Source: Acidobacteriota bacterium (lineage in GTDB: Bacteria > Acidobacteriota > Terriglobia > UBA7540). Taken from it: 42,881 nucleotides of DNA. This document shows positions 5,719-40,450 of this stretch, piece after piece (the stretch's first letter is position 1; every line of letters begins with the position of its first letter). Location of the stretch: positions 283 to 43,163 of the forward strand of contig PLSX01000192.1 in the NCBI GenBank assembly GCA_003165315.1. The letters run 5' to 3'. Both the position numbers and the translations under genes were made by a program. Under the pieces are notes generated by a model that saw only the letters and a list, made by a program, of their open reading frames with translations, ran no database searches and was not told the origin of the DNA.

Positions 5719-8301
5719 CTATCCGCCCCGGCCGGTCGGGTGACAGGCATAACAATTAGCACTGTTCCAGACGTATCCCTTTACCCCGCTGTGCTCAGGA
5801 TTGGTCTTGGCCTGAGTATGGCAATTCGTGCAGGTGAAAACGACATAATTGGAGGAATTAGTATGGCAATCACTGCACAAGGTCGCGCTGTGGTGGGGGA
5901 TCGGGAACCAGGTATGGTTAAACACAGCGCCCGTCCACGCCGTCGTGTTGTGGCAGGTTGCACAGGTCGTGGGGAATCCCGCCGCCACATGATTGGGATT
6001 GGTCGTTCCTGTATAGTCCACTTTGTGGCAGGAATAGCAGTCTGTCGGCGTCCCGGCAAAGACATTGTTGATGTGGCAAGTGGTGCAAGCCACAGTGACG
6101 TGCGCGCCAGTCAGGGGAAACGGAGTGTTGTTGTGGTTGAATGTGGCGCCCGCCCAGCTTACGGTGGTGTGGCAGACCGAGCAGTCAGTGGGGAAGCCCG
6201 CCGCCATGTGGCTGGGATTGGTCGTGCCGGTGAAGTCTGTCTGGTGGCAACTATAGCAGGCCGTATTGGCGCTAGTCAGGCTGTAATTGTTGTTAATGTG
6301 GCACTGCTGGCATGCCAGCGACGTGTGGGCCCCGGTTAGCGTGAATCCCGTCGTGGCATGGTTGAATGTCGCCCCCGCCCAATTCACGGTGCTATGGCAA
6401 ATGGAGCAATCCGTGGGGAAGCCTGCCGCAACGTGATTGGGATTGGTCGTGCCGGTGAAGTCTGTCTGGTGGCAACTGTAGCAGGCAGCATTGGCGCTGG
6501 TCAGTTTGTAGTTGCCATTCACATGGCATAGCTGGCATGCCAGTGTAGTGTGCGCGCCCGTAAGGGCAAATCCTGTGGTGGAGTGATCAAAAGTCGCGCT
6601 GCCCCACGATACCGTCGTATGGCATTGCTGGCAGGTTGTGGGGAAGCCGGCCTGTACGTGGCTCGGAGCAGTGGTGGCATTGTAATCAGGCAGGTGGCAG
6701 GCTACGCAAGCCGTATTCGCCCCGGTCAGGTTGTAGTTTCCATTCACATGGCACAGCCCGCAGAGCACCGTGGTATGGGCGCCGGTAAGGGGGAACCCCG
6801 TGGTGGAGTGGTCAAACGTCGCATTGGCCCATGAAGTCGTGGTGTGGCATTGCTGGCAAGTCGTGGGGTAGCCTGCTTGCACGTGGTTGGGATTCGTCGT
6901 CCCCTTAAAATCGCTCAGATGGCATGTGACGCAGTCCGCGCTCGTCAGATTGTAATTGTTGTTCACATGGCATTGAACACAGGCCAGTGAGGTATGCGCC
7001 CCGGTCAATGGAAACCCTGTGAGGTTGTGGTTGAACGTGGCGTTGGTCCAGGAAACCGTATTGTGGCACTGGTCACAGGATTGCGAGAAGCCCGACTTCA
7101 CATGATTGGGGTTCGTTGTCGCTTGAAAATCGGCCAGGTGGCAATTTACACAGGTGGAGTTGGCACTGGTCAAATTGTAATTTCCATTCACATGGCACTG
7201 TTGGCACTGCAAGGAGATGTGCGCGCCAGTCAGGGGGAAGCCCGTCGTGGAGTGATCAAACGTGGCGTTGGCCCATGATGTTGTGTTGTGGCATTGCTGG
7301 CAGGCCGTGGGGAAGCCTGCTTTCACATGGTTGGGATTCGTTGTCGCCCGGAAGTCGGCCATGTGGCAACTGGAGCAGTCCATGGTTGTCAGGTTGTAGT
7401 TGTTATTCACATGACACTGGATGCATTGAAGACCTGCGTGTCCGCCTGTCAGCGGGAATCCAGTGATGTTGTGATTGAAGTTTACCGACATCCAGTTTGA
7501 CGTGTTATGACAGGTGGCGCAATCCTGCGAGAACCCTGCCCGCACATGATTGGGATTTTGCGTCCCCGTAAAGTCTTTCAGATGGCAACTCACGCAGTTG
7601 GTCACTGTAATTTGGTAGTTTCCATTCACGTGGCAGGCCGTGCAGTCCAGCGTGGCGTGCATTCCAGTAAGGGGAAAGCCTGTGGTGGAGTGATCGAACT
7701 TCGCGCCCAGCCAACCATCCATGCTGTGGCAGGTCTGGCATACGTTGGAAAACTGTAGTGCCCGGTGGTCCGGCGTGGCGGTGGCTAGTGTGGTGCTATG
7801 GCACGCCATGCATTCGGTGGAAAGCCCTTGAAATTGGCTTACTGCCGCTCCTTTGTGACACTCGTCGCAAGTCAGCGAAGCGTGGGCCCCCACCAGGGGA
7901 AACCGGTTCTGGTGATCTTTGATGGCTTGCAGCGAAGCCTGCCAACCGTTCACCGTGTGGCATTCCTCGCATTTCTCACCGAGTTGCCCCTTGTGAATGT
8001 CCGCGTGGCAGTCCGCGCATTTCGTGCCCACGTTCGTAAAGACCAAACTGACATGGCACTCCGTGCAGGAAACTCCCTGGTGTAACCCCCTCAACGGGAA
8101 TCTTGTTTTGTTGTGATCGAATTCAACAACGTTACGAAGCGGCTTCCAGGAAGTGTACGTATGGCAGTTCTCGCAAGGTACGTTCAGGGGGCCGTGGGGA
8201 CTTCGCGTCACACCTCGAGGGCTTGCCTGGTCGGCGAAAAGACAGCCGACCGGCATGAACAGCAGAAAGAGAAATAGGCCTGTTCGACGAGCCCTGAGCA
8301 T
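5719..8301 (-). CDS. Secreted 34-heme c-type cytochrome with eight triheme repeats
   Basis: An 860-residue exported protein containing 34 CXXCH heme-binding motifs, one per 25 residues. The first 23 or so residues form a signal peptide (FLFLLFMPVGCLFA-DQ); the Cys in VGC is a weak lipobox candidate. Residues 1-187 hold six irregular motifs. Residues 188-779 are eight consecutive repeats of about 74 residues, each with three CXXCH motifs and the constant stretches FDHSTTGFPLTGAH, CHVNGNYNLT and NPNHVxAGF. A partial ninth repeat with four motifs ends the protein. Each repeat also has three conserved histidines outside the motifs (FDH, GAH, NHV), which matches one distal ligand per heme and suggests bis-His coordination. 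The regular spacing predicts a long heme wire. It lies between the 23-heme cytochrome and the beta-barrel gene and is probably periplasmic or outer-membrane associated. Heme count is read directly; location is inferred. Confidence 0.93.
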   Translation of the reverse strand: MLRARRTGLFLFLLFMPVGCLFADQASPRGVTRSPHGPLNVPCENCHTYTSWKPLRNVVEFDHNKTRFPLRGLHQGVSCTECHVSLVFTNVGTKCADCHADIHKGQLGEKCEECHTVNGWQASLQAIKDHQNRFPLVGAHASLTCDECHKGAAVSQFQGLSTECMACHSTTLATATPDHRALQFSNVCQTCHSMDGWLGAKFDHSTTGFPLTGMHATLDCTACHVNGNYQITVTNCVSCHLKDFTGTQNPNHVRAGFSQDCATCHNTSNWMSVNFNHNITGFPLTGGHAGLQCIQCHVNNNYNLTTMDCSSCHMADFRATTNPNHVKAGFPTACQQCHNTTSWANATFDHSTTGFPLTGAHISLQCQQCHVNGNYNLTSANSTCVNCHLADFQATTNPNHVKSGFSQSCDQCHNTVSWTNATFNHNLTGFPLTGAHTSLACVQCHVNNNYNLTSADCVTCHLSDFKGTTNPNHVQAGYPTTCQQCHTTTSWANATFDHSTTGFPLTGAHTTVLCGLCHVNGNYNLTGANTACVACHLPDYNATTAPSHVQAGFPTTCQQCHTTVSWGSATFDHSTTGFALTGAHTTLACQLCHVNGNYKLTSANAACYSCHQTDFTGTTNPNHVAAGFPTDCSICHSTVNWAGATFNHATTGFTLTGAHTSLACQQCHINNNYSLTSANTACYSCHQTDFTGTTNPSHMAAGFPTDCSVCHTTVSWAGATFNHNNTPFPLTGAHVTVACTTCHINNVFAGTPTDCYSCHKVDYTGTTNPNHVAAGFPTTCATCHNTTAWTGAVFNHTWFPIPHHSATLCSDCHTNSSNYVVFTCTNCHTQAKTNPEHSGVKGYVWNSANCYACHPTGRGG
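5965..7740 (-). repeat. Eight tandem units of about 222 bp inside the 34-heme cytochrome gene
   Basis: The triheme protein repeat is also visible in the DNA: stretches encoding FDHSTTGFPLTGAH and CHVNGNYNLT recur about every 219-228 bases with high identity. This points to internal duplication of a triheme unit. The array is a likely hotspot for recombination that changes heme number and for assembly errors with short reads. Confidence 0.85.
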
Positions 8302-12212: not shown

Positions 12213-13145
12213 ATGCAGAAGTCCAAGCGTTTGAGTCTTACTCTAATTTTGGCGGCATTGTTAGGCGGATTGAATTACGCTCCGGTCTTCGGCCAAGAGC
12301 CAAGCACGGCAAGCGCCCCTGATCCGCTTCTCGACGCGCTTAACAGCGAATTCCGTGCCGAATACCAGCAAGCCCTGGCTGCAACACTGGCTCAACCCGG
12401 CCCCATGATACTTGAAGAGGGCGACAAACTGATTCTGGTTCGCAACGGGGAGCGCACCACCGTCAATGTGAAGCCCGTGGAGTATCACGAGCTCAAGGCA
12501 GTCGCCCACATTCCCCTGGCCTTGTTTGTAATGCTGTCGTTCCCTCAGGAAGCCCCCTTCTCAGCGGATCGCCAGCAGCGCCTTCAGCACTATCGCGAAC
12601 TGATGGCTGGCGCGCACGAAAGTCTTCCGCACCGGCACTTCACGCCCGTACAACTTAAGCGCCAAGAAAAGATTTTTGGTGCGTCCTTCGAACTGTTGGA
12701 TCAAGCACTGGCCAAGGGGCAAGTAAGCGCGCCAACATTGAAGAACTTCACGCGGCAGATGGCGCCGTTGCTGCTCGCGAACGTTGCGGACGCGACGGCG
12801 CTGGAGATGCAGGAGCTTTACAAAACAGCCGCGGCCTGGAAGCAACAGCTCACGCCGGCGGAGTGGAACGCCTTGCACATGGTCATGATTGGCCCGCACA
12901 TGCCGCGTGACCAGGGATGCTCCATTCAATTCTTTGAGCGCCTCTTCCGCGAGCCCGAGGAAGGCAAGCGAATCATCTACGCGGAAGCTCTGTGGAACGA
13001 AAAGGACGCGCTCAACCTGCTGGCCACGCACGTCGTGGACGAATCCGCCGGCGCAGCGTTCTTTGGCGATCCCATGCGCATGCACCGCGATCTGCTGGCC
13101 GACGCGGCCAAGGCCTACCTGGACTCGCATCCCCTGGAGAAGTAG
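12213..13145 (+). CDS. Secreted protein of unknown function
   Basis: A 310-residue protein starting at ATG 12213, preceded by AGGAG seven bases upstream. The longer frame beginning at 12132 would put a poorly coding segment before the signal peptide. The signal peptide runs MQKSKRLSLTLILAALLGG with cleavage near VFG-QE. The mature part is mostly alpha-helical by composition, with phrases such as EFRAEYQQALAATLAQPGPMILEEGDKLIL and a conserved-looking MIGPHMPRDQGCSIQFFERLF. No domain is recognised. It follows the metallo-hydrolase gene by 80 bases in the same direction and may be co-transcribed. A tandem repeat array begins about 120 bases after its stop. Periplasmic location is likely; role unknown. 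Confidence 0.75.
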   Translation: MQKSKRLSLTLILAALLGGLNYAPVFGQEPSTASAPDPLLDALNSEFRAEYQQALAATLAQPGPMILEEGDKLILVRNGERTTVNVKPVEYHELKAVAHIPLALFVMLSFPQEAPFSADRQQRLQHYRELMAGAHESLPHRHFTPVQLKRQEKIFGASFELLDQALAKGQVSAPTLKNFTRQMAPLLLANVADATALEMQELYKTAAAWKQQLTPAEWNALHMVMIGPHMPRDQGCSIQFFERLFREPEEGKRIIYAEALWNEKDALNLLATHVVDESAGAAFFGDPMRMHRDLLADAAKAYLDSHPLEK

Positions 13146-13263
13146 GCGTTCGGCAGGAAGCAGTAGCCAGTTGGCAGTCGGCACTTGGCGGCAGGTAGGG
13201 CGCTGAGCGCCAAAAGACTGGCCCGTCGTACCCTGGAGCATCTTGCACATCGGTTAATTCAGC

Positions 13264-13720
13264 TCAACTTTTCACTACAATCTGCCGATAATCGTAGTGG
13301 CAAAGTGGGCCGTGACGGCCCAATGCCGCCCCCCCCTTTATGTGGGTATCGACATTTTTTGATCTTTACGTGAATCAAAGTAGATCCAACTCAGCCTCAA
13401 CTTTTTACTGTAAACTGCCGATAATCGTAGTGGCACAGTGTGCCGTGACGGCCGAATGCCGCTCCCCCCCTATGTGTATCGGCTCATTTTGGTCAGCCCT
13501 TGAACTAAACTTTATTCAACTCAGCCTCAACTTTTCACATCAATCTGCCGATATTGATGAGGAGAAAGTGTACCTCGCAGGTCCGGTACTGCTTCCCCCT
13601 ATACGGTATCGGCTTATTTTGATAAGAGCGTGAACCCAAGGAGATTCCATTCAGTCACAACTTTTCACCACGATTTGCCGATAAAGATAGCGTTGAAGTG
13701 CGGCTTAACAGCCCAATGTC
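13264..13720 (+). repeat. Four tandem copies of a 130-133 bp structured repeat (array 1)
   Basis: GCCGATA landmarks occur at 13284, 13417, 13547 and 13677, so the period is 133, 130 and 130 bases. Exactly 20 bases before each GCCGATA is TCAAC (ACAAC in copy 4). Each core ends with TATCGGC or a variant about 67-70 bases on (13347 TATCGAC, 13477, 13607), forming a 7-bp inverted repeat with GCCGATA in copies 2 and 3. Exactly 25 bases after GCCGATA starts a hairpin: GCCG/CGGC in copies 1 and 2, ACCT/AGGT in copy 3, GGCT/AGCC in copy 4. Pairing is kept while the bases change. A run of 5-8 C follows. TCAA-N16-GCCGATA resembles a sigma-28 promoter. The same unit recurs near 24.9-25.15 kb. It may be a structured RNA, a promoter plus small RNA, or a palindromic mobile repeat. 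Confidence 0.8.
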
Positions 13721-13760
13721 GCCCTTCCCTTTATGCCATAAGCGCTAGCTTAATGATTTG

Positions 13761-14241
13761 GAGTTCCCGCGAGCCCACACCAACGGACTCCATAATGTGG
13801 CCCATGGCGAAAGCCGTGGGAGAACGAACAGGAGTATCCGTCGCAAGCCCCTGTCGGGGCGACATCCTCGAAACCAAACGAGCTGGATTCTTCTGTCGTC
13901 GCTCCCGGGGCTCACAAATCCCCCTGAGATGCGTAATCGCACGGCTTGGAAGTCGTGATCCCGAATGTGCAATAGCATTTCACGCCAAGGCGCAGAGGCC
14001 GAGAGGACATTAAAGGATCTGTCTGTTGTGAACCTCAGCGCCAGGTGATTGAAGAAGGCGCCCTACAGAAACTGGCGGCCTTGAGCACGCATGAGGAGGC
14101 AACCCCGGATCTACTCCAGCCTGAAACCGGAAAAGAGCCTGCGGCGAGCGCGAAACGGCGCACATTCTCCCCGTAACTTTCCCTTTGCATCGCTCATTGT
14201 GGAGGCGTAGAATCACCGACAGTTGTAGTAAGGTGAGGAAT
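13761..14241. other. Non-coding stretch upstream of blaI
   Basis: Short open frames exist on both strands but none has a ribosome binding site or recognisable protein. GC-rich complementary segments (CCCTGTCGGGGCG near 13850, CTCCCGGGGCTC near 13905) suggest a degraded dispersed repeat of the kind common in Acidobacteriota intergenic DNA. The final 100 bases must hold the promoter of the blaI/M56 pair; no clear operator palindrome was picked out. Confidence 0.35.
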
Positions 14242-14628
14242 ATGGCACTCCCCAAACTTAGCAAGCTCGATCTTCAAATCATGCAAGCCCTCTGGACTCG
14301 TGGCGCACTCTGCATCCGCGAGATTCAGGAAACATTCCCCGAACGCAACCGCCCGGCCTACACCACCGTCCAGACCATCGTGTATCGCCTTGAGGCCAAA
14401 AAGGCTGTTCGGCGCGTGAAGAAAATCAGCAACGCCCACATCTTCGAGGCGGCTATCTCCCGCCAAGCCGTTCAAGGTTGGCTAATTGACGATTTCCTGG
14501 GCCTGTTTGGCGGCCAAACCCAGCCCATTGTGGCGCACCTGATTGAGTGCGGAAAGCTGACCCTCGAAGATGTGCAAAAGGCGGAAAAGACTCTTCGCAA
14601 AATGGCCAGGAAGGAGAGCGCTTCATGA
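14242..14628 (+). CDS. blaI: BlaI/MecI-family transcriptional repressor
   Basis: A 128-residue winged-helix protein starting at ATG 14242 with AGGTGAGG just upstream. The N-terminal domain (LSKLDLQIMQALW, then AYTTVQTIVYRLEAKKAVRR) is the typical BlaI/MecI helix-turn-helix and wing; the C-terminal part (QAVQGWLIDDFLGLFGG to the end) is the dimerisation domain. In studied relatives, BlaI represses its own operon until a partner M56 metalloprotease causes its cleavage. Here the M56 gene starts inside the stop codon (ATGA overlap at 14625-14628), so the pair is surely co-transcribed. No beta-lactamase gene is adjacent, so the regulated targets may be elsewhere or be the downstream secreted proteins. 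Confidence 0.92.
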   Translation: MALPKLSKLDLQIMQALWTRGALCIREIQETFPERNRPAYTTVQTIVYRLEAKKAVRRVKKISNAHIFEAAISRQAVQGWLIDDFLGLFGGQTQPIVAHLIECGKLTLEDVQKAEKTLRKMARKESAS

Positions 14629-24928: not shown

Positions 24929-25149
24929 TCAAGACTTGACCGAAGACTGCCGATAAACGTAGTGGTAGAGCGTGCCGTGACGGCCCAATGCCGTTCCCCC
25001 CTTATGTGGGTATCGGCTCATTTCGACCAAAACGTTAACCGAAAGCGATCCACTTCAGCCTCAAGATTTGATCGTAAACTGCCGATAATCTACTGGTAAA
25101 GTGTGCCTTGACGGCCCAAAGCCGCCCCCCCTTTGTGTGTGGTATCGGC
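24929..25149 (+). repeat. Two further copies of the 130-133 bp structured repeat (array 2)
   Basis: GCCGATA occurs at 24949 and 25081 (period 132) and TATCGGC at 25011 and 25143, giving two 69-base cores with perfect 7-bp inverted ends. TCAAG sits exactly 20 bases before each GCCGATA (24929 and 25061). The inner hairpin is GCCG/CGGC in the first (24974) and GCCT/CGGC in the second (25105), the latter kept by a G-U pair. A run of 6-7 C follows in each. On the minus strand the first copy also has TAACGTTT 12 bases before its GCCGATA, so a bidirectional sigma-28-like promoter is possible. Orientation is the same as array 1 at 13.3 kb. Confidence 0.8.
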
Positions 25150-25350
25150 TCATTTTGGGCTAAAGATGAAACGAACTTGTATTGCAGGGTGGCGTGTGAG
25201 GAGCCGTTAGCACTGCAATGGCATCGAACGCTTGCCGCAATAAGTAAGGTGTCGGCACTGCGTAGCAAGTCGAACACACTGAGGGCCATTCACCTGCCTT
25301 GTAAAGAATGCCCTTACTCCCGCGCTCGTCTGCTGCTAAATTAGCTACTC

Positions 25351-27664: not shown

Positions 27665-28381
27665 ATGAAAATCGTCATCATTTCCGACATTCACGGCAAC
27701 TCCGACGCCCTTTTAGCGCTTCCGGAGGCTTACGATGAGCTCTGGGTTCTGGGCGATCTGGTGAATTACGGGCCCGACCCGGCGGCGGTGATTGATTTTG
27801 TGAAGGCGAAAGCGGCCATTGTGGTGAGCGGGAACCACGACTACTCGATTGGATTCAATCAAGACCCGCAATGCTCCCAGCGGTTCAAGCAGATGGCGGA
27901 GGCGACGCGGCGATACACCAACTCGGTGTTGAGCATGGAGCACAAACGTTATCTTCGGCACCTGCCGCGCTATGTGGAAGCGGAGCGCAACAGGACCCGA
28001 TTTTACATCTGCCACGCGATTCCGTCCGATTCCCTTTTCGGCTATTGCCAGGCCGATTCCCCGCGCTGGCCCGCCGAAATTGAAAATCTCAGCGCTGACA
28101 TTGTGCTTGTGGGCCACACGCATATTCCCTTTGTGCAGTCATTCGGCTCGCGTCAGGTGGTGAATCCGGGAAGTCTGGGTCAGCCCAAAACCGGCAGTCC
28201 TGAGGCTCGCTATGCGGTTTGGGAGGATGGAAAGATCGAGGTCAAATCCTATCCCTACCCGGTTGAGACAGCGGTAGCCAAGGTGCAGTCGCTTCCCATC
28301 GAAGAGCAGTTGCGAAATGAGCTGACCGCGATTCTGCGGACCGGGAAAATTCCGGGCGGGATTTGGCAGGTGAAGAGTTAA
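27665..28381 (+). CDS. Metallophosphoesterase (YfcE/MJ0936-like)
   Basis: A 238-residue cytoplasmic calcineurin-like phosphoesterase. The five metal-site motifs are in order: DIHGN (residues 8-12), GDLVNYGP, GNHDY, a CHAIPSD His, and GHTHIPF. MKIVIISDIHGN at the start fixes the N-terminus. Members hydrolyse phosphodiester or phosphomonoester bonds with a two-metal centre; the natural substrate of this subgroup is unclear. It is the first intact gene after the fluoride riboswitch (600 bases downstream, same strand). Two-metal phosphatases are often fluoride-sensitive, so fluoride control would make sense, but this is inference. The start has only a weak ribosome binding site. The stop runs straight into a short low-complexity repeat. 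Confidence 0.9.
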   Translation: MKIVIISDIHGNSDALLALPEAYDELWVLGDLVNYGPDPAAVIDFVKAKAAIVVSGNHDYSIGFNQDPQCSQRFKQMAEATRRYTNSVLSMEHKRYLRHLPRYVEAERNRTRFYICHAIPSDSLFGYCQADSPRWPAEIENLSADIVLVGHTHIPFVQSFGSRQVVNPGSLGQPKTGSPEARYAVWEDGKIEVKSYPYPVETAVAKVQSLPIEEQLRNELTAILRTGKIPGGIWQVKS

Positions 28382-28490
28382 AGAGTTCAAGAGTCGAAGA
28401 GTTGAAAAGTAAGGAGTTGAAGAGTTAAAGAGTCGAAAAGTTGAAGAGTTCAAAAGTTGAAAGGTCGAGAAGTTGAAATCGCGAGGACGG
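28379..28490 (+). repeat. Degenerate short-period repeat (about 9 nt)
   Basis: Units such as AAGAGTTGA, AAGAGTTCA and AAGAGTCGA repeat about eleven times with varying quality, beginning at the stop codon of the metallophosphoesterase. The strand is almost pyrimidine-poor. It looks like slippage-derived simple sequence and carries no gene. Confidence 0.75.
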
Positions 28491-40299: not shown

Positions 40300-40450
40300 T
40301 CATCGGGTCATTGAGGAATTGTCAATTGACGATTTTCGATTGACGATTGGCGATTTGTGATATGTGATTGGTGATTTGCTAATCTCGATCTTCGAAATCC
40401 GAGTTTCGAATTTCGAGTTTCGAGCTTCGAATTTCGCTTTTCGAATAGGG
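40300..40450. repeat. Low-complexity short repeats between thiG and the methyltransferase-like gene
   Basis: Two kinds of degenerate units follow each other: GATTTGTGATT/GATTGGTGATT/CGATTGACGATT from about 40322 to 40378, then TTCGAATTTCGAG/TTTCGAGCTTCGA from about 40388 to 40446. They resemble slippage-derived simple sequence and, like the 9-nt repeat at 28.4 kb, sit right beside a gene end. Confidence 0.75.

Follow-up and report, generated by a model that had tools for sequence, protein, structure and literature searches.

The window analyzed here is a stretch of 42,881 nucleotides from an Acidobacteriota genome, and it contains four head-to-tail copies of a repeat that start at positions 13264, 13397, 13527, and 13657, at spacings of 133, 130, and 130 bp. 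The pattern TCAACTTTTCAC-N4-AT-N-TGCCGATA matches the window 4 times and was found 0 times in 100 shuffles, so the tandem array of 130-133 bp units reported in a preliminary description of this sequence is real. GCCGATA lies exactly 20 bases past the start of TCAAC in all four tandem copies, as that description had said, and a second pair of units at 24929-25037 and 25061-25169 brings the window to the six copies it had counted. The neighbors of these arrays are a gene without a Pfam match, a BlaI/M56-type regulator pair, and a PMT-like protein. The window also carries a 225-bp tandem repeat (6134-7369) inside a minus-strand open reading frame at 5719-8301 (860 aa) that matches multiheme cytochrome families (Cytochrome_C7, MtrC-like), and this is an ordinary internal repeat of a multiheme cytochrome. 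An imperfect 8-bp tandem repeat, TGAAGAGT, occupies 28371-28474 at the end of a metallophosphatase gene, and the 7-bp sequence TTCGAAT is repeated in 8 tandem copies at 40391-40446.

All six units lie on the plus strand. Unit 1 (110 bp, 13264-13373) matches the R1 model at 68.1 bits (E 2.6e-20), units 2 and 3 (107 bp each, 13397-13503 and 13527-13633) at 64.2 and 53.7 bits, and unit 4 (13657-13734), which is truncated at its 3' end to the forward arm and the core, at 31.8 bits over model positions 2-78 of 112; the two units of the second array score 62.9 and 71.7 bits. Units were oriented for alignment such that the core holds the C-run, and 40 of them were aligned and used to build a sequence model. 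Their common layout is (AATTT..)TCAA[C/G]-N15-GCCGATA, a core, and TATCGGC-N15-..TGA(..AAATT), with inverted arms of ~38 bp forming terminal inverted repeats. In the 40 copies, the spacers and core vary, and the columns that are invariant or nearly so are TCAA, the AA immediately preceding the first GCCGATA box, GCCGAT, the inner C-run, ATCGGC, and TGA. When units were located independently, using only the putative -10 boxes and the C-run, 46 were recovered; the spacer is 15 for the forward TCAA in 37 of them and for the inverted TCA in 39, and their GC-rich cores range from 50 to 64 bp and end in a C-run/G-run palindrome. Since the spacers are fixed at 15 and the core spans this range of lengths, the arms evidently admit almost no insertion or deletion whereas the core does. 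The putative -35 box of the inverted arm is the weaker one (TCAT/TCAC), and on both arms an AATTT-like AT-rich block lies just upstream of the -35 box, at the site where the UP element of a promoter would lie. The closing TATCGGC landmark is intact in copies 2 and 3 of the first array, but reads TATCGAC in copy 1 and is lost in copy 4.

Several familiar kinds of array were considered and set aside. The preliminary description was right that this is not a CRISPR, judged on anatomy: the units are 107-115 bp long, share 79% identity within an array, and are separated by related spacers. By inspection, an integron attC array is rejected for want of matching core boxes and cassette open reading frames, and a coding repeat was judged unlikely since core lengths vary by non-multiples of three. 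An Rfam search of the window returned no matches at gathering thresholds, in keeping with the earlier failure to recognize a known RNA family.

A more specific claim had been that the arms of a central hairpin differ between copies yet keep pairing at the same offset, as expected under selection on an RNA or cruciform structure. The arms do differ and pair, as GCCG/CGGC in copies 1 and 2 (GGGCCG-TGA-CGGCCC at 13307-13321, plus strand, in unit 1), ACCT/AGGT in copy 3, and GGCT/AGCC in copy 4, but copy 4 has a loop of 4 nt and its 3' arm lies one base out of register, so the offset is not shared by all, and the four copies offer just two or three events as evidence of compensatory change. Across 40 units of the family the hairpin is not conserved (its helix pairs in just 50% of cells) and RNAalifold finds no base pair to predict; the best perfect stem within the middle segment averages 4.03 bp, no longer than the 3.81 bp of shuffles. 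Interior folding is likewise no better than in shuffles, with mean z-scores of -0.28 on the plus strand and -0.53 on the minus strand. GCCGATA and TATCGGC are reverse complements, which accounts for their ability to pair; the 27 departures from them comprise 18 unpaired, 6 changed on one side, and 3 changed on both, and change here mostly breaks the pair without compensation. Covariation, scored as pair counts, does exceed that of most column shuffles (5 of 500 and 4 of 500 reach it on two measures), although structure-free trials often reach such scores, which are common among related sequences. A perfect stem of at least 4 bp (CCCC..GGGG) also abuts the inner side of the inverted -10 box in 26 of the 40 copies, compared with 12% of shuffles; this palindrome, strong in most other copies, is weak in those of the window (CCC/GGG within the C-run at 13325-13346, plus strand, adjoining the inverted box). 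The pairing of divergent arms in copies 1-4, the covariation score, and this C-run stem are what an RNA or cruciform kept by compensatory changes has in its favor, and against the missing consensus structure, the z-scores near zero, and the uncompensated changes, we give that explanation very little credence. No RNA fold shared across the family was found, and the fixed landmarks of the units make better sense as -35 and -10 boxes, with a sigma-28-type promoter at either end.

The E. coli sigma-28 consensus is TAAAGTTT-n11-GCCGATAA (PMC2859248, PMC8325347), and TCAAG and TCAAC forms occur among E. coli FliA sites, for example those of flgKL and modABC (PMC4183435). The GCCGATA(A) of the repeats, with its nearly invariant GCCGAT, resembles the sigma-28 -10 box, TCAA[C/G] is a variant of the -35 box akin to those flgKL and modABC sites, and in both cases two boxes stand at a fixed spacing. 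The repeats differ in their spacer, which has 15 bases between TCAAx and GCCGATA where E. coli sites have 14, and in their arrangement as tandem arrays of pairs that face each other, with no gene following. A matrix was built from 16 E. coli FliA ChIP sites, chosen by their tabulated ChIP score (PMC4183435). With a spacer of 15, ranks 1-6 among about 85,760 positions in the window go to the six forward arms (19.8-27.6 bits), followed by another arm at 14.9 bits. With the spacer of E. coli, five of these forward arms, read one base in, lead the ranking. The predicted forward promoter, TCAAC-N15-GCCGATA, lies at 13264-13290 on the plus strand in unit 1, with equivalents starting at 13397, 13527, 13657, 24929, and 25061. 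The predicted inverted promoter, TCAAG-N15-GCCGATA, faces it from the minus strand, for example at 13477-13503 in unit 2, with equivalents ending at 13373, 13633, 25037, and 25169. These inverted arms rank 7 and 19-32, and their lower matrix rank and poorer -35 box count against a promoter reading, as does a spacer with one more base than E. coli sites and the host's own fliC and fliD promoters have.

The genome of the window encodes two FliA_WhiG proteins scoring over the cut-off (G000 C270 and C187), and one FliA_WhiG sigma gene sits between flhA-like and fliM-like genes. Its predicted fliC promoter is TTAAG-N14-GCCGATAA and its predicted fliD promoter TCAAG-N14-GCCGATA, while N15 promoters are predicted at GGDEF (TAAAG), PAS-GGDEF (TCAAG), and HDOD (TCATG) genes. 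Judging from these predicted sites, spacings of 14 and 15 both seem usable in this host, and one might guess that the two sigma paralogs divide the two spacings between them. The classical TAAA/TTAA-N16-GCCGATAA form showed no enrichment in the genome, with 2 matches against 4 for the reversed control; the form one base shorter, with N15 after the four-base box, picked up fliC and, as TCAA, fliD. A TAAAG-N15-GCCGATA sequence also lies on the minus strand between mreB-like and mreC-like genes (L080, about 3367), possibly a flagellar-sigma promoter for a cell-shape gene. Since the assembly is in 285 contigs (6.19 Mb, 92% complete) with an estimated contamination of 7.34%, it is possible that fliC and the arrays come from different chromosomes.

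In this genome, the model finds 47 matches at about 20 intergenic places, and several arrays run to contig ends. The repeat pieces inspected sit between long reading frames, beside genes of unrelated function. Units are 79% identical within one array and 59% between arrays, and for 24 of 31 units, the nearest relative is in the same array, which argues for local tandem duplication together with dispersal. Outside this genome, we found a simpler form in three of eight genus mates, where a single arm followed by ACCGATACGGGGAAGTGTGTCACG, a sequence homologous to the core start in the window's family, has 16, 5, and 2 dispersed matches (G002, G003, and G009, respectively), and no inverted partner was seen in these genomes. 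A different repeat, AACYCCTTTTGTTTCTGATACATCTTGGAAGG, occurs in several copies downstream of the half-element in G009 (L100, 900-1400) and G002 (L099, about 1760-1820), and two parS-like GTTTCACGTGAAAC sites stand beside half-element copies in G003 (L125, minus strand, about 1320 and 1100). A search of 30 other genomes of the family gave no matches, as did plasmids and phages. A class-wide scan for the two-box inverted pattern gave 17+9 matches in the genome of the window, and none of the 249 other genomes exceeded a few matches, a background level; a stricter two-ended pattern has 5 exact matches in the GTDB contig collection, about the handful expected by chance, none of which was scored by the model. 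The FliA/WhiG family model, by comparison, matched in 39 of 39 family genomes (35 over the cut-off), and since FliA/WhiG is found throughout, the element is an elaboration of one lineage and not a general flagellar part. Genus mates with FliA/WhiG proteins that lack the two-ended element indicate that sigma-28 has no need of it. The array is best explained as part of a recently expanded, species-restricted family of about 45 intergenic elements of ~110 bp.

Such an expansion is also what a mobile element might leave behind, and the main rival to the promoter reading is a MITE-like non-autonomous element in which the arms would serve as terminal inverted repeats for a transposase and the likeness to sigma-28 promoters would be incidental or secondary. 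Inverted arms of ~38 bp, dispersal to about 20 intergenic places, and restriction to one species all fit, the half-sites occur exclusively in inverted pairs, as transposon ends would, and the 8-bp sequence AAGATGCC occurs as a direct repeat on either side of one single copy (L091), a match that 7 of 300 shuffles equaled or exceeded. That copy is the one suggestive case among 8 single copies, which show no consistent target duplication, and the arm of the genus mates, with its conserved downstream ACCGATACGGGGAAGTGTGTCACG and no second arm seen opposite it, does not look like a pair of transposon ends. That an external FliA matrix picks out exactly the repeat arms also speaks against a mobile element. 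We regard a MITE-like origin as an unlikely but serious competitor. Inverted, spacing-fixed sites in intergenic clusters could also suit some other dimeric DNA-binding protein, a nucleoid organizer or partition factor unrelated to transcription, but this would account neither for the specific match to both FliA boxes nor for the likeness to motility-gene promoters, and we consider it quite improbable.

We therefore favor, with moderate confidence, dispersed and locally duplicated elements in which two predicted sigma-28-type promoters converge on a GC-rich core. Each element consists of two promoter-like half-sites facing each other across a core of 50-64 bp. RNA polymerase carrying a FliA/WhiG sigma factor would bind these half-sites when the motility genes are on, and transcription would start inside the boxes, chiefly on the strand with the C-run and at a lower level on the opposite strand. 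The products would be short non-coding RNAs that collide head-on or read out of the array, since no intrinsic terminator follows (no terminator-like sites were found in 13100-14300, around the first array). Many identical sites would also take up sigma-28 holoenzyme, and the consequences for the host might be a sigma sink, or antisense or read-through control of neighboring genes. The likeliest net effect would be that about 20 loci undergo non-coding or read-through transcription that depends on the flagellar state, and the beneficiary may be either the cell or the repeat alone. A stronger version, in which ~80 flagellar-sigma promoters in some 40 face-to-face pairs act as a genome-wide sigma-28 sink or timer and yield complementary RNAs while the flagellar program is on, strikes us as doubtful.

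The same promoters could instead drive sigma-28-dependent sibling small RNAs, transcribed from the C-run strand and pairing through their C-rich stretch with ribosome binding sites, with tandem copies raising the dose. A strong predicted forward promoter, the conserved AGTGTGCC and C-run on the same strand, and the tandem copies would suit such RNAs, and sigma-28-dependent small RNAs exist in E. coli and Campylobacter (PMC10578931, PMC11187230). The lack of terminator-like sites in 13100-14300, the lack of a conserved fold, and an opposing predicted promoter inside the would-be RNA gene make this proposal rather improbable.

Convergent promoter pairs of this kind have partial counterparts elsewhere. 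The Correia Repeat Enclosed Elements of Neisseria are, like the elements here, short, intergenic, and present in many copies, with inverted ends that can carry promoters (PMC2649163), and, to the extent that descriptions can be likened, the present family differs in that its predicted promoters are flagellar in type and face inward, its copies form tandem arrays, and there is no consistent target duplication. Non-coding transcription from FliA promoters, as predicted here, is known from the four sigma-28-dependent small RNAs of E. coli, which are described as UTR-derived, whereas the repeats are stand-alone intergenic units without a terminator or conserved fold (PMC10578931). Tandem families of sibling small RNAs also have several related non-coding copies per genome, but copies here share the predicted promoters at their ends more than an RNA body (PMC4211561). 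Inverted-repeat elements that carry promoters are thus known (PMC2649163); what would be new is the predicted sigma-28 type, the inward direction, and the tandem arrangement, and a limited literature search found no tandem arrays of flagellar-type promoters paired in this convergent way. If the arms are active, they would add a layer of flagellar-state-dependent non-coding transcription to intergenic DNA, one that owes its spread to a repeat instead of to gene duplication, and would provide a naturally occurring example of alternative-sigma promoters that converge, and possibly of a sigma factor titrated by arrays of promoters. If the arms are only transposon ends, the family would instead illustrate how a mobile element could seed the promoters of one regulon across a genome.
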